Shown here piece by piece: positions 511-63,832 of a stretch of 64,000 bases of DNA. Location of the stretch: NCBI GenBank assembly GCA_021801795.1, contig JAJYXR010000027.1:55027-119026 (forward strand), in the 5' to 3' direction. Source of the stretch: Actinomycetes bacterium. GTDB taxonomy: Bacteria > Actinomycetota > Acidimicrobiia > Acidimicrobiales > JAJYXR01. Under the pieces are notes generated by a model that saw only the letters and a list, made by a program, of their open reading frames with translations, was not told the origin of the DNA and ran no database searches. A program made the translations under genes and the position numbers. The first letter of the stretch is position 1. Each line of letters opens with the position of its first letter.

Positions 511-2082
511 CTAGGGCCTTCCAGGCTGGTTGGCGCCGGTAGAACCGGACGAGGTGCCCTGCGAGGCTACATCACCAGGTCCAGGCGAGGTGGAGGCTGC
601 AGAGGTGGTGGTCGTGGTCGTCCCGTAGACGGGCGCCGCCAGCGGTGGGGGTGTAGGCACTCCGGTGGGGCCCGTACAACCCGGGGTAGGTGTCACACCC
701 ACGAGGAGGGGAACCGTGGGTGCCTGGGGAAGGTCCAGCAGAGTCGTGTTCACCGAGTCTGCCATCGCAGTCTGGCCTGCCGGGTTCGGGTGAAGATGGT
801 CGCCCGAGTCGTACGGCGGGAACATCGCTGTCGGTACGCAGGCGCCGTTGTAGGCATCGCGCACTGCGGCCGCGAAGTCCAGAACTGCGTCGAATGCCCC
901 AGAGGTCCTGATCCACTGGTTCACCTGCTCCCTGTAGGTCTCCATCGTCTCGGTCCACGGGCGGCCGTCCACGACACTGCCTTTCCTGGGCAGCAGGGTC
1001 ACGCCGATGACCCTCAGGCCTGCCTGGTGGACCATGGCGATCGCCTGCTGAAGCCCGGCGATCACCTGGTCGGCGGTCGCCCCGAAATAGAGGTCGTTCG
1101 TGCCGAGGAAGATCACCACCTCCGACACGCCGTCCTGGGTGAGGGCATCGACGTCCATGCGCTGAAGACCCGGAGGACCGCCACCCACCTTCGCGAAGTC
1201 ACCGGGCACGCTGATAAGCGTGTTCGCGCTTATCCCCTCGTTCACCACTGCCCGGCGCTCGTCGGCCGGCAGCAGGTCTATCCGGTTCTGCAGGACATGG
1301 GTCCAGGTGAGCGAGGTGTTAAACCCTGCAGTTATCGAGTCGCCCACCACCACTATGCTCCCGGCTGCCCTGCTGGTAAGCACATCCACTGCGTCCACCC
1401 ACCTCGGAAAGGGACTCGCTGCAGAGAAGGGGGCAGCGCCCGGGGCATCGACGGCGTCACCCCCCCCGTTAGGGGTGAAGTAGGAGACCTTCGGGCCATC
1501 GGGACGGGAGGGGTTCAGGCTGACCAGGTCCGGGCGAACCACGTAGAGGCTCACGGCCAGCACCTGCATGGCATGCACCTGTATCGGCACCGTGTCGCTC
1601 GTGAGCACCTGACCGACGGGTATGGTCACCGACGGCTGACCCGCGAAGGTGACCTGGTGGAGGGTTCCGGCAGCCACGTAGGGACCGCTCGTATCCAGGG
1701 CGACAGTGGCGGCCCCCACCACCAGCGGGGCATTGCCGAACGCGTTCGATATCCGTATCCTCACGGCCCGACCCCCTATTCCCACCCGGGTGAGCTCGCG
1801 CACCGTAGCGTTCTCGGCGATGCCGTAGCCCCATGCCATGGCCGACCCCCAGGCCACACGCCACGACGGCACCGATACCGGTGCGCTGGTCGTAGACGTG
1901 GTGGCAGGCGACATGGTCGTCGTCACGACGCCTTCACGCCTGCGGTGGGGTTTCTCGGCGTGCGCGCGTCGATCACCACTCAGGGTCACCAGCGCCACCG
2001 TGGTACCCACCAGGAGCGCGACCAGCAGGGCCGGCACCCCGCGGCGCAGCAGTCGGGCCTGCCTACTCACCGTCCTGGCCAT
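511..2082 (-). CDS. Secreted SGNH/GDSL-family esterase
   Basis: A 523-residue protein with an N-terminal arginine-rich stretch and one hydrophobic segment (about residues 15-36), consistent with a signal sequence or membrane anchor. A Thr/Ser/Pro linker (52-70) follows. Residues 72-230 look like the beta-rich accessory domain that often precedes this catalytic domain. The SGNH hydrolase domain starts with GDSI (247-250, nucleophile Ser), has GTND (327-330) and ends with DHLHP (428-432, catalytic Asp/His). The tail is Pro/Thr/Ser-rich, suggesting a surface-exposed linker. It probably hydrolyses ester or acyl groups on extracellular glycans or lipids; the substrate cannot be inferred. No Shine-Dalgarno precedes the ATG at 2082, and a leader frame overlaps it. 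Confidence 0.85.
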   Translation of the reverse strand: MARTVSRQARLLRRGVPALLVALLVGTTVALVTLSGDRRAHAEKPHRRREGVVTTTMSPATTSTTSAPVSVPSWRVAWGSAMAWGYGIAENATVRELTRVGIGGRAVRIRISNAFGNAPLVVGAATVALDTSGPYVAAGTLHQVTFAGQPSVTIPVGQVLTSDTVPIQVHAMQVLAVSLYVVRPDLVSLNPSRPDGPKVSYFTPNGGGDAVDAPGAAPFSAASPFPRWVDAVDVLTSRAAGSIVVVGDSITAGFNTSLTWTHVLQNRIDLLPADERRAVVNEGISANTLISVPGDFAKVGGGPPGLQRMDVDALTQDGVSEVVIFLGTNDLYFGATADQVIAGLQQAIAMVHQAGLRVIGVTLLPRKGSVVDGRPWTETMETYREQVNQWIRTSGAFDAVLDFAAAVRDAYNGACVPTAMFPPYDSGDHLHPNPAGQTAMADSVNTTLLDLPQAPTVPLLVGVTPTPGCTGPTGVPTPPPLAAPVYGTTTTTTSAASTSPGPGDVASQGTSSGSTGANQPGRP

Positions 2083-19091: not shown

Positions 19092-19871
19092 TCAGTGCTC
19101 CTCCTGCATGGCTATGTCGAAGTAGACGATGGTGAGCAGAGCGAAGATGAAGGCCTGGATCGGGCCTATCAGCAGCACGTCGAAGATCTTCCAGACGGGG
19201 TCCAGGATGATGACTGCCACGTCGCCTATCGGGATCCCCGAGAGCTTCCAGGCAGCCAGGGCTGCTATCAGGGCAAGCATGAGGCCACCGGACAGCAGGT
19301 TCCCGAATAGCCGGAGCGCCAGGGTGACGGGGCGGACCAGCTCCTCCACGACGTTTATGAAGAGGTTGATCGGGAACAGGAGCTTCGGAAACGGGTGGAA
19401 GAAGTAGTGGGCGATGTAGCCACGTATCCCTCGGGCTCGCACCGAGGCTATGTGCACGAGGAGGATGACGAACAGGGCGAGCCCGAGGGGAAGGTTGATG
19501 TCGCCGGTGGGGGCAGGCAGGAACTCGTACTTCGACCCCAGGCCGAAGACCTCGAAGGAGTTGGCCACGAGGATCAGGAGGAAGAGGGAGATGGCCAGGG
19601 GGACTATGGCAGCACCGCGGGGACCGATGGAGCCCTCGACCTGGTTCGTCACCGCATCAACCAGAGCCTCCCAGATGATCTGCAGCTTCCCGGGTACGTC
19701 ACTGGTGGCGCGGGCACGCAGGAAGAGGCCGAGGCCCATCACCACGAGCATCGCCGCTCCGGTGGCCCAGAGGGTGTCCAAGTCCATGCTGAAACCGAAG
19801 ACCTTCCCCTCGGGGTGGACGCCCACCGTGATGTTCGCGGCGAGCAGCCGCGGAATGTCCAGAACGCTCAC
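19092..19871 (-). CDS. atpB: ATP synthase Fo a subunit
   Basis: 259-residue membrane protein of the proton half-channels. The conserved arginine lies in the fourth main helix (VTLALRLFGNLLSGG), followed by the C-terminal helices ending AFIFALLTIVYFDIAM. GTG start overlaps the upstream stop as GTGA (19868-19871). Confidence 0.96.
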   Translation of the reverse strand: MSVLDIPRLLAANITVGVHPEGKVFGFSMDLDTLWATGAAMLVVMGLGLFLRARATSDVPGKLQIIWEALVDAVTNQVEGSIGPRGAAIVPLAISLFLLILVANSFEVFGLGSKYEFLPAPTGDINLPLGLALFVILLVHIASVRARGIRGYIAHYFFHPFPKLLFPINLFINVVEELVRPVTLALRLFGNLLSGGLMLALIAALAAWKLSGIPIGDVAVIILDPVWKIFDVLLIGPIQAFIFALLTIVYFDIAMQEEH

Positions 19872-40566: not shown

Positions 40567-42099
40567 TCAGCCCGTGACGGCTGTTGAGCTCGATGCAGGC
40601 GCCTGGCCGAGGGTAGCCGTCGTGCTGCGCTCCCTGTTCCCCACCCAGTAGGTGATGGTGACCTGGTCGCCGGGATGGTAGGACCGGATCGCGACGCTGA
40701 GCGATTCTGCCGAGGTGATGGCCGTGCTGTCCACCTTCACGATCACGTCACCGGCAGCCAGGCCTGCCTGCGAGGCCGGTGACCCAGGCTCCACTGCTGC
40801 CACCAAGGCGCCACTGGTGGGGGTGAAGCCGTACTCTGCTCGGAGCCCCGAGGTGAGCGTCAGGATCTCCACCCCGAGGTAGGCCGGGCTCTTCGCCACC
40901 GTCCCGCCCTTGGCCAGGAGCGGAAGCAGGGCCTCGATCTTGTCGACAGGGATCGCGAAGCCGATGTTCTGAGCAGGCGCATTGCCCGAGCCGGTTCCCG
41001 ATGCCACTGCCGTGTTCATCGCGATCACCTCTCCCTGCGCATCCACGAGTGGCCCTCCGGAGTTACCGGGGTTTATGGCGGCATCGGTCTGGAACATGTC
41101 AGTGAGCGTCTCGGTAGCGCCAGTCACCGAGTCAGAGGCAGTCACCGTCCGACCCTCGGCAGATATGATCCCGTTCGTCACTGTCGGACCGCCGGCGAGA
41201 CCCAGTGCGTTCCCGATGGCTATGACCGCATCACCCACCTGTGTGTCGGCAGAGTTCCCGAGGGTGACCGTGGGTAGCGTCCCCGTACCGTGGACCTGCA
41301 GGAGTGCCATGTCCGCGGTCGGGTCCGTCCCTATGACACTTGCCGCGTACTGGTGAGTCGAGCCGTAGAGGGCGACCGTGATGCTCGTCGCACCTTCTAT
41401 GACATGGTTGTTCGTAAGCACCTCACCAGACGGGGTAAGGATCATCCCAGTCCCCTCGTCGGTGACCGTAGCCGAGGATGACCCGCCACTCCCATAGCCA
41501 TAACCCCCACCGAAGGGGCTGCCACCGAAGGGACTGGCACCGAATGGGCTACCACCTAGGGGACTCACCTCGCTCGAGGTCGCGGGGCCCGTAGCGGTGA
41601 TCGAGACCACCGCGGGGAGCACCTTGGCAAGCACGGCCTGGATGTCCATGGTCGCCGGTGGCAGGCTGGTGTCGGCTACGAACCGGTCGATAACGGTAGT
41701 GCCATGACTCGACGACACAGCCGTGACGCCGGAACCCACCGCACCTCCGACCACGGCAGCCACGATAAGGGCTGCCAGCCAGAACCTGGGGCGGGAGAAG
41801 CGACCCATCCCACCACCAGAGGCGCCCGGCGACAGAGGAGATCCGGCACCCGAGAGGTGGTCCGCACCCGAGGACTCGCCCTCGGCCTGCAGGCTCGGGG
41901 GGCTCGGCAGGCTCGGCAGGCTCGGCACCCAGTAGAGCCCCTCGTCCTCCTGAGATGCATTGCCCTCCTCATGGGCATCCGGCACCGGGGTGGCCCCGTA
42001 GGCCGGTCCTGGCTCGCGCTCTGGCCCACCTGCGGCCGGGTCGGGGTGATCCCCGCTGGCCGGCCCTTCCATACTCCAGCTCTCGTCGATCTCGTCCAT
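40567..42099 (-). CDS. Membrane-anchored HtrA/DegP-like serine protease with PDZ
   Basis: 510 residues: cytoplasmic acidic Pro/Gly-rich region, one membrane helix (FWLAALIVAAVVGGAVGSGV), trypsin-like domain and a C-terminal PDZ domain. Catalytic residues in TNNHVI (His), ADMALLQV (Asp) and NPGNSGGPL (Ser). A Gly/Pro/Phe repeat (GGSPF) lies between the first strands. ATG 42099 has a perfect AGGAGG. Likely envelope protein quality control. Divergent from a two-component system that may control it. Confidence 0.92.
   Translation of the reverse strand: MDEIDESWSMEGPASGDHPDPAAGGPEREPGPAYGATPVPDAHEEGNASQEDEGLYWVPSLPSLPSPPSLQAEGESSGADHLSGAGSPLSPGASGGGMGRFSRPRFWLAALIVAAVVGGAVGSGVTAVSSSHGTTVIDRFVADTSLPPATMDIQAVLAKVLPAVVSITATGPATSSEVSPLGGSPFGASPFGGSPFGGGYGYGSGGSSSATVTDEGTGMILTPSGEVLTNNHVIEGATSITVALYGSTHQYAASVIGTDPTADMALLQVHGTGTLPTVTLGNSADTQVGDAVIAIGNALGLAGGPTVTNGIISAEGRTVTASDSVTGATETLTDMFQTDAAINPGNSGGPLVDAQGEVIAMNTAVASGTGSGNAPAQNIGFAIPVDKIEALLPLLAKGGTVAKSPAYLGVEILTLTSGLRAEYGFTPTSGALVAAVEPGSPASQAGLAAGDVIVKVDSTAITSAESLSVAIRSYHPGDQVTITYWVGNRERSTTATLGQAPASSSTAVTG
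41510..41569. repeat. 15-bp degenerate tandem repeat in the HtrA-like gene
   Basis: Four 15-bp units (41510, 41525, 41540, 41555) encoding five residues each, FGGSP-like. Divergent copies suggest an older array than those in lysA or hom. Confidence 0.7.
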
Positions 42100-42220
42100 C
42101 GGTATCCTCCTGGGGATCATTCCAGCGATATCTTCGGGCCTGAAGCTTTGAGCTAGCTGAGAGTGCCCTGTGGCGCTGCCGCGGATTTCGGACCGGCGAA
42201 GATGCAGCTCCTATCCCACA

Positions 42221-56707: not shown

Positions 56708-57106
56708 TCAGGCCCGCCGGTCGACGAAACGCGGAGCGGGGCTGGCTGCACTTCCGGTGCCCCCAGGACCAGGGCCGAAGGAGCCCACCCGTTCCTCCAT
56801 CGCTGCCACCGCCTGGCCGAGTGCGTCTGCCAGCACCACCGCCTGGCGTTCGAGCTCCCGCGTCGCGATCAGCACCGATTGGGCCCTCTCCAACAGATCG
56901 GCCGGTATGGGTCCAGGGTCTTCATGGGGCGGCTCGAAGCGAGCCAGCAGTGCGTCGGGTGAACCTGGCCCAGCCGAGCCGGCAGGTAGCGCAATGGGAC
57001 CTGCCTCACCGAGCAGGCGCCCCTCGACCGGCTGCTCGATGAGAGCCCGCCATCCAGCCAGGTCGCGCTCCATGGCGTCGAGAAGCTCCTGCCACGACGC
57101 AGCCAT
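56708..57106 (-). CDS. Small helical protein downstream of fliS, possibly FliT/FlgN-like
   Basis: 132 residues, start supported by AGGGA 8 nt upstream, 9 nt after the fliS stop. Helical N-terminus (WQELLDAMERDLAGWRALIE) and a second helix (LLERAQSVLIATRELERQAVVLADAL). Size, helix pattern and place resemble FliT/FlgN flagellar export chaperones, but I see no diagnostic motif. Confidence 0.55.
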   Translation of the reverse strand: MAASWQELLDAMERDLAGWRALIEQPVEGRLLGEAGPIALPAGSAGPGSPDALLARFEPPHEDPGPIPADLLERAQSVLIATRELERQAVVLADALGQAVAAMEERVGSFGPGPGGTGSAASPAPRFVDRRA

Positions 57107-57115
57107 CGATGGTCC

Positions 57116-57556
57116 CTAGGCTGCGCCGTGGACGGCCAGGGCAGGCGGCACCATCGCACCCGGCCCGGCGGCGGCGTCCTCCAGGGCATAGCGCTCTGCA
57201 GCCAGATGCCAGGCCGATGCCAGCTGGCGAGCGATGTCGGCACACTGGTCTATGCGGGCACGGTCCTTATAGGTGTCGGCAAGCAGGGTCTCGCGGTGCA
57301 GGAAGTCGTAGAGCGCTGCCAGCTTCGGTGCATGCTCCCAGACCTCCAGGCGAAGCGTGGCTCGGAGGTAGCGGATCACCTCGGTGGCATGGCACAGCGC
57401 CCTGTGCACGCCCTCGATGTCGTTTACCTCGAGTGCCGTCTCGGCTTGGGCGAAGTCGGCCACGAGCCGGTCGTAGACCATCACCACCAGCTTTCCCGCG
57501 CCCGCGGTGGCTACCGAATCACCCATGTAGCGCTGCTCTACCGACTGCATCACCAC
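57116..57556 (-). CDS. fliS: Flagellin export chaperone FliS
   Basis: 146 residues. QRYMGDSVATAGAGKLVVMVYDRLVADFAQAE matches the FliS opening (Y...V.TA...LI.MLYDG). Binds flagellin before export. GTG 57556 has AAGGGG upstream; ATG 57550 possible. Downstream of fliD. Confidence 0.9.
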   Translation of the reverse strand: MVMQSVEQRYMGDSVATAGAGKLVVMVYDRLVADFAQAETALEVNDIEGVHRALCHATEVIRYLRATLRLEVWEHAPKLAALYDFLHRETLLADTYKDRARIDQCADIARQLASAWHLAAERYALEDAAAGPGAMVPPALAVHGAA

Positions 57557-57642: not shown

Positions 57643-60183
57643 TCATAGCCCCGTGGCGCTTATGAACTGCGACAGGTAGCTGCCCTGGCTGTGCAGGGAC
57701 GAGACCACGCTCAGGGCCTGGGAGAACTCGTTCTGGAGCATCTGCTGTTCCTGGTTGGCGATCTGCTGGTAGTTCGCTATCTCCGGGTTCAGTGCCGTCG
57801 ACTCCTGCTGCAGACCCGAGATCACGTACCCGAGCTGGCCGGTAGTCGGGTTCGAGGTCTGGTTAGCCAGCTGGACATAGTCTTGGCCCGCACCAGCGGT
57901 GTAGGTGAAGCTGCCGATGTTCGTGGACGAGGTGATGCCCGGGGTGGTGACCTCGAGCACCATGCCACCCAGCGGCGAAGCCGACGACGCCGTGAGCGAC
58001 TGGCCGTTACCGGTGGCGGCCATCCCGTCGATGGTGCCAGCCACGTTGGTCCCGGTGAAGCTGGCCGTCCCGCTACCCGCCAGCCCCGTGGTCCCCGAGG
58101 CGGTGTTCGTGGAGCTCACCGTGAACGTAGCCGAGCTGCCGTAGGCGTCGGAGAGGATCTGGAGCTGGTCGGAGCTGTTCACCTGAGCGTTCAGGGCCAT
58201 CCCCATGCCAGAGAAAGCCTGGTTCAGTCCCGAGGCGATGCTCTGGAGGGACTCACCTGCATAGGTCGAGTAGGCGATGCTCTGGCCCCCCGTGGCGACG
58301 CTGAGGGTCTCCGCAGCGCTGACGCTTCCCGCGGAGAGGGCCGTGCCAGTGTCGGTGGCCTGCGTGGCCGACTGGGTGATGTTGACCGAGTAGGTGCCCG
58401 GCTGGGTGGTGGAACCCGCGTAGAGCAGGCTCACCTGGCCCGTGTAGGCCGACGAGGAGGGGGCGAAGGTCCCACCCTGGGCGAAGAGCGCCTGGACTGC
58501 CGAGGGATTCGCTGCGTAGGCCGAGTCGAAGGTGCTCTTGTTGAACGCGAGCTGGGTCATCGTGCCGTTCGAGGTGAGCGTGACCCCGGCTGCAGCCAGC
58601 GAGCCGAGCGAGGTGCCCTCCCCGGCCGTGGCCACGAGGGAGAGGATCTGCTGCTGGAGGTTCTGGAGTGCAGCGGAGCCCATCAGCGGCCCGCCGGTCT
58701 TCGTGGCCGCGTTATAGCCGATGTCGCTGTTTATGTCCGAGAGCACCTGGTTCGCCGCGTTCACGAATGCCTGGACCTTCGTGGCCATGGCCTGGGCATC
58801 CGAGGACACGGTCACGGTGACCGGCGACGAGGACACCGAGTGGAGGTCGATCGTCACACCTGCGAGCAGCCCCGTGAGAGAGTTCGTGGGGGACGAGACC
58901 ACCGGCCCACTAGCACCTCCTATCGACACCTGCGCGTCTGAACCGGCTATGGCGGTGTCGAGGGTCCCGAGCGGGGTAGAGGCGAAGGAGCCAGGCGCGA
59001 TGGTGATGTCAGACGCGCTGCCGGTGGCAGAAGCAGTGAGCTCCAGCTGGTAGCCAGCAGAGGTCTGGACCGCCGACGCGCTGAAGCCGACCCCCGCGGA
59101 GTTAATCGCCTGCACCACGTCCGCGAGCGAGCCGTTCCCGGTGCTCACGTTCTGTGCACTGATCGATCCGACCGAGACGAGCGAGCTGTTCACGTAGGGC
59201 TGGGACGTGGACCCCTCCACGGTCGCCGATATGGACCCCCCCGATCCCGAGCTGAGCGTGTAGGTGGACCCGGGGGCCACGGTCGTCAGCGTGTTGGAGG
59301 TGCCGTCCACGTTCACCACGGCATTGGCCCCGGACGCTGCAGAGGACATCACCGAGAGCCCGAGTGCGGAGAGTGCTCCCCCTCCGGTCACCTGGAGCGA
59401 CTGGGACGAACCCTGGTCTACTGTGGCGAGCACCATCTGGCCAGATGAGCTGAGCCCCGCCTGCAGGCTGCCCGAGAGCCCCGCAGCCGAGATGGCAGAG
59501 TTAACTGCCGCCACCAGGGAGGACCCGGATGTGTAGTTACCAGGGGTGATGGTGAGCGTGTAGGCGGTGCCGTTCACGGTCACGTCCAGGGTGTTGGACC
59601 CGCTCGCGATGTCTGCACCCGAGGTCTGCAGGTCGGTGCTCCCCGTGGCCGTGGCAGCCTGCGAAGCCTGGGTGACGCTCAGGGTGTGCGATCCGAGGGT
59701 CAGGCCGCTGCCCGCGAGTGCCGAGAACCCGAGCGACCCTGCCTGGGAGAGCAGGAGGCTGGTCGCCGAGGTCACCGACGACGAGGTGGAGGACACTGCA
59801 CCCGAGGACAGGAGCACGTCCGCGGTGGCGAGCTGGTCGACCGTGAAGGTGGTGGAGCCGGACTGTGCACCCGACGAGGCCGTCGCGCTGGCCACCGCGC
59901 TGTCGGAGGAGCTGGCCTGCATCGCTCCCCAGTCCGAGGGCGAGGAGATAGCCTGAGCAGCGCTCTGGAGAGCCAGGACGTCGGTGTTGACCTGCTGGTA
60001 GGCACTCACCTGGCTCGCAAGCGTCTGCTGCTCATCCTGGAGGTTGGTGATGGGCTGGTCATAGCTCGCCATCAGGGCATCTATGACCGTCTGGGGGTTG
60101 AACCCCGGGAGAACCTGGTTCCAGATAAGGGCATCGAGCGACGCTGCTGTCGAACTCGAGGAAATCCCGCCTAGGAACGTCAT
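57643..60183 (-). CDS. fliD: Flagellar cap protein FliD (HAP2), arginine-free
   Basis: 846 residues, longer than the usual 450-650. N-terminal FliD domain (PGFNPQTVIDALMASYDQPITNLQDEQQ) and C-terminal FliD domain (EIANYQQIANQEQQML...LSQFISATGL). Middle is Ser/Thr/Ala/Gly-rich with hook-IN-like units. No arginine occurs and only three lysines. ATG 60183 follows GGGAGG; the upstream frame is arginine-rich and is not part of the protein. Confidence 0.93.
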   Translation of the reverse strand: MTFLGGISSSSTAASLDALIWNQVLPGFNPQTVIDALMASYDQPITNLQDEQQTLASQVSAYQQVNTDVLALQSAAQAISSPSDWGAMQASSSDSAVASATASSGAQSGSTTFTVDQLATADVLLSSGAVSSTSSSVTSATSLLLSQAGSLGFSALAGSGLTLGSHTLSVTQASQAATATGSTDLQTSGADIASGSNTLDVTVNGTAYTLTITPGNYTSGSSLVAAVNSAISAAGLSGSLQAGLSSSGQMVLATVDQGSSQSLQVTGGGALSALGLSVMSSAASGANAVVNVDGTSNTLTTVAPGSTYTLSSGSGGSISATVEGSTSQPYVNSSLVSVGSISAQNVSTGNGSLADVVQAINSAGVGFSASAVQTSAGYQLELTASATGSASDITIAPGSFASTPLGTLDTAIAGSDAQVSIGGASGPVVSSPTNSLTGLLAGVTIDLHSVSSSPVTVTVSSDAQAMATKVQAFVNAANQVLSDINSDIGYNAATKTGGPLMGSAALQNLQQQILSLVATAGEGTSLGSLAAAGVTLTSNGTMTQLAFNKSTFDSAYAANPSAVQALFAQGGTFAPSSSAYTGQVSLLYAGSTTQPGTYSVNITQSATQATDTGTALSAGSVSAAETLSVATGGQSIAYSTYAGESLQSIASGLNQAFSGMGMALNAQVNSSDQLQILSDAYGSSATFTVSSTNTASGTTGLAGSGTASFTGTNVAGTIDGMAATGNGQSLTASSASPLGGMVLEVTTPGITSSTNIGSFTYTAGAGQDYVQLANQTSNPTTGQLGYVISGLQQESTALNPEIANYQQIANQEQQMLQNEFSQALSVVSSLHSQGSYLSQFISATGL

Positions 60184-60250
60184 CTGAACACCTCCCCTCA
60201 CCTGTCGGGTACCGCCCCTGGGACGGCCACACGTCCTGAGAGCGGTTCCG

Positions 60251-60278
60251 GTCCGGGGAACCCGAGGGTTCCCCGGAC
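60251..60278 (-). terminator. Strong hairpin between fliC and fliD
   Basis: Perfect 12-bp stem GTCCGGGGAACC / GGTTCCCCGGAC with a 4-nt loop. It follows the flagellin stop by about 30 nt and has no T-tract, so it may limit read-through or protect the flagellin message. Confidence 0.7.
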
Positions 60279-60309
60279 ACGGACTCACTCTCGCTTAGAA
60301 CCCGCTCTA

Positions 60310-61140
60310 CTAGCTGAGCAGCTTCAGCACCAGGGTCGGGTTCGTCTGTGCCTGGGCCAGCATGGCAGTGCCGGACTGCATCAGGATCTGGTCCGTGGTG
60401 AACTGCGTGGTCGCCTGAGCCATGTTCACGTCGATGATCGACGAGTAGGCAGCGGTCACGTTCTGGTTCGCGACGGTCAGGTTCTGGATCATGGCAGTCA
60501 GCTCGTCCTGGGTGGCACCGACCTGAGCCTCCACGCCGTTCACGTTCGTGATGGCTACGGCCAGCGAGGCCATGGCCTGTGAGGCGTAGGTGGCTGAACC
60601 TACGTTCGTATTGGCGATGTTCAGCGCAGGCGCACCGGTGGATGCCGCCGTGATCGACAGCTCGATGGTGTCCGTGTTGTAGACACCTACCTGGAACGTC
60701 TCGTTAGAGTACGCGCCGGTGAGGAGCTGCTGCTGACCATAGGTCGTGGTGTTGGCAATCTGGTTTATCTGTCCCATCAACGCCGAGTACTGGGCGTTGT
60801 TGGCCGCCAGAGTCGCCGAGTTCATCGTGCCGGCGTTCGCCGAGGACTCCGCCAGCGTGTACATCTGCTGGAGCAACCCACCGATCTGCTGCAGGGCGCC
60901 ATTAGCGATCTGCAGCACCGACACGCCTTCGTTGGCGTTCTGGATGGCCTGGGTCTCACCGTTCTGCTGCAGGGTGAGATACTGGCCGATGACGTAGGCA
61001 GCCGGGCCGTTCTCTGCGGTCTGGATCGCCTTGCCCGAGGAGAGCTCGCTCTCCACCTGGCTCAGCGCCGAGTCCGTCTGGTTCAGCAGGTTAAGGCTGT
61101 TCAGCGCATCGACGTTGGTACCGACAACTAGTGACGACAT
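60310..61140 (-). CDS. fliC: Flagellin, arginine-free
   Basis: 276 residues: only D0/D1, no variable outer domain. N-terminus VGTNVDALNSLNLLNQT..LSSGKAIQTAENGPAAYVI and C-terminus SSIIDVNMAQATTQFTTDQILMQSGTAMLAQAQ fit flagellin, but the usually conserved arginines (LSSGLRI, SRI.D) are replaced. No Arg, His, Trp or Cys, and two Lys. AAGGAGG precedes the ATG. Confidence 0.95.
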   Translation of the reverse strand: MSSLVVGTNVDALNSLNLLNQTDSALSQVESELSSGKAIQTAENGPAAYVIGQYLTLQQNGETQAIQNANEGVSVLQIANGALQQIGGLLQQMYTLAESSANAGTMNSATLAANNAQYSALMGQINQIANTTTYGQQQLLTGAYSNETFQVGVYNTDTIELSITAASTGAPALNIANTNVGSATYASQAMASLAVAITNVNGVEAQVGATQDELTAMIQNLTVANQNVTAAYSSIIDVNMAQATTQFTTDQILMQSGTAMLAQAQTNPTLVLKLLS

Positions 61141-61225: not shown

Positions 61226-61489
61226 CCCATTACCCGGACAATCCGAAGTTCCTGCGGACCCCGGAGGTGACCTACGGCACGATCCTCGCCACCTAGTTAA
61301 TCGACACCCTCCGTGCTCGGCTGAAGCGCCAGACCCACCTGACGCGTTATTTTGTCATGGCGTTGTGCAGTGAGGCTGGTGGTGGGTAGAGCCGTTACCC
61401 AGGCAGAGCTACTGTCCGGCCGGGCTACTGTCCGGCAGAGCTCCGCGGGCGCTATCAAGCCTCGGTCCCGCATTCCCGATACCATTCCG
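61226..61489. other. Divergent flagellin/glycosyltransferase gap
   Basis: Contains the 5' side of the flagellin promoter region and open frame upstream of the glycosyltransferase. GCTACTGTCCGGC is repeated with a 16-bp period near 61409-61437. No clear plus-strand promoter seen. Confidence 0.35.
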
Positions 61490-63832
61490 GTGGTCTCCAG
61501 AGCGCCCACCACCGTCGTAGTCCCCGTATGGAACGCCTGGGACACCACCCGGGCCTGCCTGGACGCGCTCCGCCCCACCCTGGCTCCCCGGGACCAGGTG
61601 GTGGTGGTGGACGACGGATCGACCGACGCCACCGCCGCGAGGCTGTCACGCTATCCATGGGTGCAGGTGGTGACGAACGGCCAGAACCTCGGCTTCGCAG
61701 CCGCCTGCAACCGTGGGGCCGCTCTGGCCACCGGCGAGATCCTGGTGTTCTTGAACAACGACACCCTGGTGAGCGGGCGCTGGCTCGACGCCCTCTGCGG
61801 AGTCTTCTCGGACCCCTCGCTCGGAGCTGCCGGTGCCCGCTCGAACTTCGTGTCGGGCAGCCAGATGGTGGCCGAGGCTGCCTCGCTGCGGCCCGACCCT
61901 GCTGCCATCCGCTCCTTCGTGCGGTCCTGGGAGGCTGCACACAGGGGGATGACGACACCTACGACGCGGCTGGTCGGCTTCTGCCTGGCGGTGAGGCGAG
62001 CCGCCTTCGAGAAGGTGGGCGGCTTCGACGAGTCCTACGGCAGCGGCGGCTTCGAGGACGACGACCTGTGCCTCAGGCTCACCGAGGCCGGATATGGGCT
62101 GGTGATAGCCGACGAGTGCTTCGTCTACCACGCCGGCCACGTCACCTTCGACGCGAACGGCCTCGACTGGTACGCCGAGCAGAGGTCGAACGAGCAACGT
62201 TTCTTCGCCCGGCATGCCACGGCAGCCAAGCCCTCGCGGACCACCGAGCCGCTGGTGTCGGCCTGCATGATCGTGCGCGACGAGGAGGTGAACCTGCCTG
62301 GATGCCTGGCCTCGCTGAAGGGCCTGGTAGACGAGGTGGTCGTCTACGACACCGGCTCGCTCGACTCCACGCCAGAGCTGGCCGCATCGCTCGGTGCCCG
62401 TGTTACCGAGGGCTACTGGGACGACGACTTCTCCCGTGCCAGGAACGCGAGCCTGGAGGAATGCCGTGGCACCTGGATCCTCTGGATAGATGCCGACGAG
62501 ACCCTGGTCTGCGAGGATGCCGCTGGGCTGCGCAGGCTGCTCGCCACCATGCCAGACGAGGTGGACGGCCTGGAGGTATCGATAGAGAACCTCTCGGGCA
62601 GCAGGCTCGAGTCGTCGTTCACCCATGTGGCGGTGAGGCTGTTCCGCAGGGAGCGCTGCCGCTGGCACGGCCGGCTGCACGAGCAGATCAGCCGAAGGAA
62701 CGGTGCCGGCCATCCCCGGCTCTCCTACCTGCCCCAGATCCGCCTACTCCACACCGGCTACAGCGCTGCGGTGTTCGAGGCGCGCTCCAAGGCGGCGCGA
62801 AACGTCAGGCTGGCCGAGAAGGAGCGGTCATCCGAGCACGCCGACGACTCCTTCGCCGAGCTGAACCTGGGCAGGTCCCTATGGGCGGGCGGGCATACCG
62901 ACGAGGCCATATCCCACTGCCTGGCCGCAGCGCGCACCACGGACGACCCGACCATCAGGCGCCTGGCCCTCCGGACGGCCATCCTCGCCATGACCTCCGC
63001 GGGACGCTTCGACGAGGCGACCTCGACCATCGGTGAGCTGCGCGCCGCCTGTGCCAGCCAGGTCCTTCCTGACGAGGTCGAAGGGGAACTCTGGCTGGCT
63101 GCCGGGGATCCTGCCAGGGCGCTGGAGCACCTGGAGAGGGTGGGTCGCTTCAGCCGTGACGACGACGGCTTCGAGCACGGCACCCACACGACCGCGAAGG
63201 CCCGCGCCCAGGCCCTGGCGGCTCTCGGCCGTCATGGGGAGGCGGCCGACGTTCTCTTGGACGTCCTCTCGACCGACGGCATACTCCCAGGGGGGGTAGA
63301 GCTGCTGGTCGCCTCGCTCACCCAGGCCGGGCGCTCACTCGACGAGCTCGCAGGCGCTCTGCGGAGCGATCGGCTGGCGCAGTTCCTGCCAAGGGTGGTC
63401 GTCATGGAGCCTGCCGAGGCCGACATGGTGCTCGAGAGCCTCTGGAGCTCGCGTTCGGAGACGCCAGACGCCATGGGGGTGCTGGCCGCAGCGGGACTCG
63501 TCACCTCGCGCCTGGGCCTGGACCGGATGCTCACCTGGTCTGCACGCCTGCGCTCCAAGGGACTCGCTGAGCACTGCCCACTCCTGGCAGTCGCCGGAGA
63601 TCCTCTGCGTGCGCCGGTCGAGAGGGTCCGCGCTGCGGCGTCCGCGCACGGCGCGTTCTGCGACCCCAGGGCACGGCCTGCGCTGGCAGCCCTCCTTGGC
63701 CAGATGGCCGCGTCCGGCAGCTCGGCGGAGCTGGAGCAGGTGACCGCCGAGCTCGAGCTACTGGTACCGGACCTGGTGGCCGACCTCCTGGCCCAGCCCC
63801 GGGAAGGACCTCATCATGGGCTGCTTCGTTAG
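61490..63832 (+). CDS. Large protein with two GT2 glycosyltransferase domains and a helical repeat tail
   Basis: About 780 residues. First GT-A domain: TVVVPVWNAWDTT, VVVVDDGSTDA, FLNNDTLVSG (DxD-like), GGFDESYGSGGFEDDDLC. Second: LVSACMIVRDEEVNLPGCL, DEVVVYDTGSLDST, WILWIDADETLV. The last 300 residues are helical with TPR-like pairs (LNLGRSLWAGGHTDEAISHCLAAA). Next to flagellin and cap genes, so filament glycosylation is likely. The frame is open from TTG 61352; I chose GTG 61490 by comparison with the second copy, but the start is uncertain. Confidence 0.87.
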   Translation: MVSRAPTTVVVPVWNAWDTTRACLDALRPTLAPRDQVVVVDDGSTDATAARLSRYPWVQVVTNGQNLGFAAACNRGAALATGEILVFLNNDTLVSGRWLDALCGVFSDPSLGAAGARSNFVSGSQMVAEAASLRPDPAAIRSFVRSWEAAHRGMTTPTTRLVGFCLAVRRAAFEKVGGFDESYGSGGFEDDDLCLRLTEAGYGLVIADECFVYHAGHVTFDANGLDWYAEQRSNEQRFFARHATAAKPSRTTEPLVSACMIVRDEEVNLPGCLASLKGLVDEVVVYDTGSLDSTPELAASLGARVTEGYWDDDFSRARNASLEECRGTWILWIDADETLVCEDAAGLRRLLATMPDEVDGLEVSIENLSGSRLESSFTHVAVRLFRRERCRWHGRLHEQISRRNGAGHPRLSYLPQIRLLHTGYSAAVFEARSKAARNVRLAEKERSSEHADDSFAELNLGRSLWAGGHTDEAISHCLAAARTTDDPTIRRLALRTAILAMTSAGRFDEATSTIGELRAACASQVLPDEVEGELWLAAGDPARALEHLERVGRFSRDDDGFEHGTHTTAKARAQALAALGRHGEAADVLLDVLSTDGILPGGVELLVASLTQAGRSLDELAGALRSDRLAQFLPRVVVMEPAEADMVLESLWSSRSETPDAMGVLAAAGLVTSRLGLDRMLTWSARLRSKGLAEHCPLLAVAGDPLRAPVERVRAAASAHGAFCDPRARPALAALLGQMAASGSSAELEQVTAELELLVPDLVADLLAQPREGPHHGLLR
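61504..61630 (+). repeat. Direct repeat copy 1 (at least 127 bp)
   Basis: Base-for-base identical to 63874-64000 (offset 2370). The match starts at the first shared base and runs to the window edge, so its full length is unknown. Confidence 0.98.

Follow-up and report, generated by a model that had tools for sequence, protein, structure and literature searches.

Loss of charged residues from the external flagellum in a clade of Acidimicrobiales that includes named acidophiles

A flagellin and a filament cap without arginine

Why should a flagellin and its filament cap contain no arginine at all, when nearly every gene around them encodes it freely? The question is raised by a window of 64,000 nucleotides, the whole stretch of DNA analysed here, in which fliC (60310..61140, minus strand) encodes a flagellin of 276 residues with D0/D1 only, and fliD (57643..60183, minus strand) encodes the filament cap, 846 residues long from its ATG. 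A residue count confirmed what a preliminary description of this DNA had reported, namely zero arginine in both proteins and only two lysines in FliC and three in FliD; FliC further contains 0 His, 6 Asp, and 10 Glu, and FliD 3 His, 28 Asp, and 11 Glu. At the median arginine rate of relatives, the naive probability of such an absence is 2e-7 for FliC and 2e-16 for FliD. FliS, the cytosolic flagellin chaperone that serves as the inside control (57116..57556, minus strand), and the small ORF adjoining it (56708..57106, minus strand; no Pfam match) have the normal content ascribed to them, with 11 arginines in 146 and 132 residues, respectively. The arginine-rich unused frame noted upstream of FliD was also recovered, as an alternative 881-residue fliD frame whose seven extra arginines all lie upstream of the ATG of the 846-residue form. 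FliD is 828-863 residues long in other arginine-poor genomes, which fits the 846-residue start, as against 529-811 residues in nine arginine-rich genomes of the same order. The statement that all other window proteins use arginine freely held for 45 of 47 other likely ORFs (heuristic list of 49, including FliC and FliD), each with at least 5.4% arginine, but not for a membrane protein (19092-19871; 3.5%) or a trypsin/PDZ protease of the HtrA type that spans the membrane once (40567..42120, minus strand; 2.3% over its whole length).

In gene order and domains, the locus resembles that of an ordinary flagellin, with fliC beside fliD and fliS and with Flagellin_N, Flagellin_C, FliD_N, FliD_C, and FliS all above the Pfam cut-off in the window. 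The FliC scores of 82 bits for Flagellin_N and 57.4 bits for Flagellin_C place it among the bacterial flagellins. The structural model is of P0001, which differs from the window FliC by one residue; its mean pLDDT was 66, with most blocks of the D1 core at 74-92 and the ends below 50. This model matched solved flagellar filaments at E values down to 3.3e-12 and displayed the D0/D1 helical fold; 78 solved flagellins matched in a separate comparison. By this model, the window FliC is a short flagellin of the ordinary kind whose chemistry has changed. The arginines usual in flagellins (in LSSGLRI and SRI.D) had been described as replaced, and none of the 12 columns in which 80% or more of the 29 class relatives share arginine retains arginine or lysine in the window FliC, and an acid is missing from 15 of its 17 conserved Asp/Glu columns. 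This shows that a lineage can do without arginines that ordinary flagellins conserve, which bears on models of the filament and on acid-proof protein tubes. On the opposite strand, adjoining fliC, Pfam identifies a family 2 glycosyltransferase with TPR-like repeats (61352-63832), which could serve flagellin glycosylation given the Ser/Thr-rich FliC and FliD.

Among the best 120 listed homologues of the window flagellin, 108 had no arginine, 11 had one, and one had two; when another query belonging to the same clade was added, 153 of 216 proteins had none, and the maximum was four. Flagellins whose source is named include those of Acidimicrobium ferrooxidans DSM 10331 and Ferrimicrobium acidiphilum (no arginine), as well as Ferrithrix thermotolerans DSM 19514, Acidithrix ferrooxidans, and Acidithrix sp. 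C25 (one each). A flagellin-family match was found in 75 of 395 genomes of the class, from which we sampled all 30 genomes of the own order, 20 of 45 from other orders, and G395 of the own family. The arginine count in FliC was bimodal, at 0-2 in 22 genomes from 11 families and 14-23 in 29 genomes, nine of them from the own order, with none between. Fragments and frames cut by locus ends were left out of these counts (176 residues with 11 Arg, G133; 97 residues with five, G273; a 5'-cut copy with 13, G111; and a 108-residue piece with none, G332). The arginine-poor branch of Acidimicrobiales, with its 22 genomes, includes the named acidophiles Acidimicrobium, Ferrithrix, and Acidithrix. Within it, G332 (L038) carries two full arginine-free flagellins plus another truncated at the contig end, and the flagellin of family f17 (G289, G193; L047, L053) is longer, at about 470 residues, still with only two arginines. 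An arginine-free flagellin about 55% identical to the window FliC (P0019) occurs in a metagenome-assembled genome labelled Acidobacteriota, which may reflect mis-binning or gene transfer; it was kept out as independent evidence because the contig may be mis-binned. A scan of genome contigs yielded a single Sulfurimonas locus, whose flagellin has 10 arginines and was counted in the FliC medians and the charge comparison, and not in the p-value or conserved-column analyses. Among 75 plasmid-borne flagellin records, no acidophile name appeared in the 40 matches listed.

Charge inside and outside the cell

The arginine shortage had been attributed to the filament, a scope that proved too narrow, as the hook, hook cap, junction proteins, and FliE share it, and other exported proteins do so more weakly and with exceptions. 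Median arginine contents (18-22 clade genomes versus 14-30 of the rest; 19 versus 10 for FliS) were 0.00 versus 5.43% in FliC, 0.12 versus 4.17% in FliD, 1.34 versus 8.39% in FlgL, and 0.96 versus 6.36% in FlgK. Hook proteins with normal arginine, which the preliminary description had named as an observation against its own idea, were not encountered, the FlgE median being 1.12% versus 4.00%, and the ranges of clade and rest were disjoint in all five of these external proteins. Inside the cell, FliS did not differ (7.09 versus 8.07%; p 0.27, with p values that ignore kinship), and RpoB contained 8.06% arginine in the clade and 7.95% in the rest. The genome to which the window belongs displayed the same gradation: FlgD (154 residues) and FliE (114 residues) have no arginine, two candidate rod ORFs (small, at the rod-gene position, without a Pfam match) have 2.2-2.5%, the membrane parts FliF, MotB, and FliL are intermediate at 3.4, 3.8, and 3.1%, and FliG, a FliI-type ATPase, FlhB, and FlhA reach 9.0, 9.2, 7.9, and 7.4%, respectively.

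The claim that external parts lost positive charge stood, and their cytosolic partners did not lose it, but aspartate and glutamate in the external flagellar proteins also fell by about 40-60%, largely to asparagine and glutamine. Median Asp + Glu contents in clade versus rest were 4.5 versus 9.7% in FliC, 4.0 versus 8.7% in FliD, 5.2 versus 12.8% in FlgL, 4.6 versus 12.1% in FlgK, and 5.3 versus 8.6% in FlgE, as opposed to 14.1 versus 12.3% in FliS. Charge of both signs, and not arginine alone, has been lost from the external flagellum. When the five external proteins were pooled and a column was called conserved if at least 80% of relatives had one shared charged residue, the clade kept arginine in 16% of cells (39 columns), aspartate in 36% (35 columns), and glutamate in 27% (21 columns); asparagine filled 35% of the conserved-aspartate cells and glutamine 39% of the conserved-glutamate cells. 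In the conserved charged columns of RpoB, the clade retained 92-96%.

Beyond the flagellum, penicillin-binding protein (PBP) ectodomains (22 versus 18 genomes; one protein per genome, mostly the best-scoring, with orthology unproven) contained 3.43 versus 6.03% arginine and 6.85 versus 13.33% Asp + Glu, with lysine (2.41 versus 1.78%) and histidine (2.00 versus 1.16%) slightly higher in the clade. The ectodomain of the HtrA-type protease in the window (residues 200-517) has 1.6% arginine, and a peptidoglycan hydrolase inside the flagellar cluster of the same genome has 1.0%. Counter-examples in the window are a GDSL lipase that carries an N-terminal hydrophobic stretch (511..2082, minus strand; 5.0% in residues 45-523) and a histidine-kinase ectodomain (4.8%), both within estimated domain limits. 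The shift is restricted to exported proteins, among which the tendency to low charge is general, though not without exceptions, and is most marked in the flagellum. A 334-residue ORF adjoining the flagellar cluster (L257:14423-15427), without a Pfam match and perhaps exported, has 1.2% arginine.

Charge computed from standard pKa values gave FliC +1.3 per 100 residues at pH 2 in the clade versus +8.5 in relatives, and -3.7 versus -2.7 at pH 7, where the clade is slightly the more charged; the corresponding pI values were 3.38 and 4.57. The window FliC carries a computed net charge of about +2.8 at pH 2 and -14.1 at pH 7. By this calculation, the clade filament is nearly neutral in acid and not specially neutral at pH 7.

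Stability in acid and its alternatives

Ordinary flagellar filaments disassemble near pH 2-3. At such pH, aspartate and glutamate would be protonated, leaving an ordinary flagellin without salt bridges, and its remaining positive charges would then repel one another between subunits. Replacement of Arg by Gln, Asn, or Thr, of Asp by Asn, and of Glu by Gln could preserve the contacts through pH-independent hydrogen bonds and packing, and the near-neutral cytoplasm that houses FliS and RpoB would call for no such change. We consider that the low charge of the external flagellum, comprising hook, junction, filament, and cap, probably keeps the filament intact in acid. A broader reading, to which we give even weight for and against, is that the whole external flagellum was rebuilt once as a nearly uncharged, acid-indifferent polymer, with the exchange of acids for amides (D to N, E to Q) and of arginine for amide-type residues (R to Q/N/T) amounting to an organelle-wide code for acid-proof self-assembly. 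How a bare filament might remain assembled near pH 2 is now open to direct test, as aligned families with and without charge are at hand from which the relevant residues can be picked out and tried.

Acidimicrobium ferrooxidans is described as motile with a growth optimum of pH 2, and acidic habitats are stated for Ferrithrix and Ferrimicrobium, and not for Iamia, in the accessible part of PMC3035218. In an excerpted Vibrio protocol, HCl at pH 2 takes flagella off the cells (PMC9249833), yet this is the pH at which the motile A. ferrooxidans grows best. Such release fits the idea that low charge holds the filament together in acid, without proving dissociation into monomers; the portion of PMC3528739 available holds nothing on acid dissociation of flagella. 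The pH adaptation of acidophilic proteins is termed unclear and inconsistent in a passage of PMC3787623. The titles and beginnings of abstracts listed by searches of an open-access library mentioned neither arginine-free flagellins nor the composition of acidophile flagella, an absence that is not proof.

The history of the trait complicates its link to acid. In an RpoB tree of 38 genomes (two of 40 were left out for want of a match or for a broken frame), all 22 arginine-poor genomes fell into one clade with support 93/92, a bootstrap that is unsettled, beside the nine arginine-rich genomes of the same order (support 100/100). This single clade implies one transition, so that kinship and acid are confounded; the tie to acid therefore derives from the named acidophiles in the clade and the exported-only pattern, and not from repeated origins. 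The acid link of the preliminary description thus gains from these members but lacks independent replication, and its interpretation as a whole is partly supported. Arginine-rich flagellins were the rule in the relatives examined, as it had anticipated, with the habitat pH of those genomes not fixed one by one. A single clade with support 93/92 would also result from a change that arose once for reasons other than pH and was passed on without serving any purpose in acid. This reading would agree, too, with the phylum sample: of 396 genomes, 56 had a match, including 51 from beyond the class, and the 25 of these 51 examined revealed no second origin or arginine-poor flagellin, all having 13-23 arginines. 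We nevertheless regard such an inherited quirk as unlikely, since under drift the five external proteins would not have stayed low across 11 families with FliS and RpoB unchanged, and since the pattern holds across a locus GC of 0.45-0.74. GC or codon bias was itself ruled out by this GC range of arginine-poor loci together with their arginine-rich neighbouring genes.

Economy, whereby a protein that is exported and abundant would dispense with residues that are costly or rich in nitrogen, could draw on the lower side-chain nitrogen of FliC (0.221 per residue in the clade versus 0.330 in the rest). It appears very improbable, however, because Asn + Gln in FliC rises from 12.7 to 20.9%, Asp and Glu fall although their side chains contain no nitrogen, and side-chain carbon is nearly constant (2.35 versus 2.43). 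Equally improbable is evasion, by which the loss of Arg and Lys would remove trypsin-like cleavage sites or contacts for phages or immune receptors: the replacement of all 12 conserved arginines in the window FliC agrees with it, but Asp and Glu were lost as well, the shift extends to the hook and to the ectodomains of cell-wall enzymes, and no host is known. Least probable of all, by a small step, is that the flagellar export gate favours low-charge cargo when it works against the steep proton gradient that an acidophile maintains, for although the strongest cases (FliC, FliD, FlgD, and FliE) are cargo of this gate from general knowledge of these families, the shift also extends to the PBP and HtrA ectodomains, for which this gate plays no part.

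Comparison with known flagellins and acid-stable proteins

Ordinary short (D0/D1) flagellins, such as those of Shewanella (9lah), Roseburia (9hpz), and Kurthia (6t17), resemble the window FliC in Pfam domains, length, and fold, yet the window FliC lacks all 12 conserved arginines, which are common in such flagellins and not required by the Pfam models. Pepsin works in acid with very few basic residues and is rich in acidic ones. The flagella of the clade share its scarcity of basic residues but differ in lacking its acid-rich composition, and pepsin is a single enzyme. A rule of low positive charge for acid-stable enzymes is already in print, as an excerpt of PMC6172347 attests; its organelle-wide version, with acid loss too, was not found in searches of an open-access library. 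The acid-stable alpha-amylases of Alicyclobacillus and Bacillus acidicola covered in that excerpt have fewer K + R + H, as do the external proteins of the clade, and the same reasoning, repulsion in acid between positive charges at the surface, is common to both (PMC6172347). These amylases are described there with an excess of D + E (PMC6172347), whereas the clade flagellum has no such excess, its D + E being roughly halved (4.5 versus 9.7% in FliC), and an alpha-amylase is one enzyme, whereas the flagellum of the clade is an organelle of many proteins.
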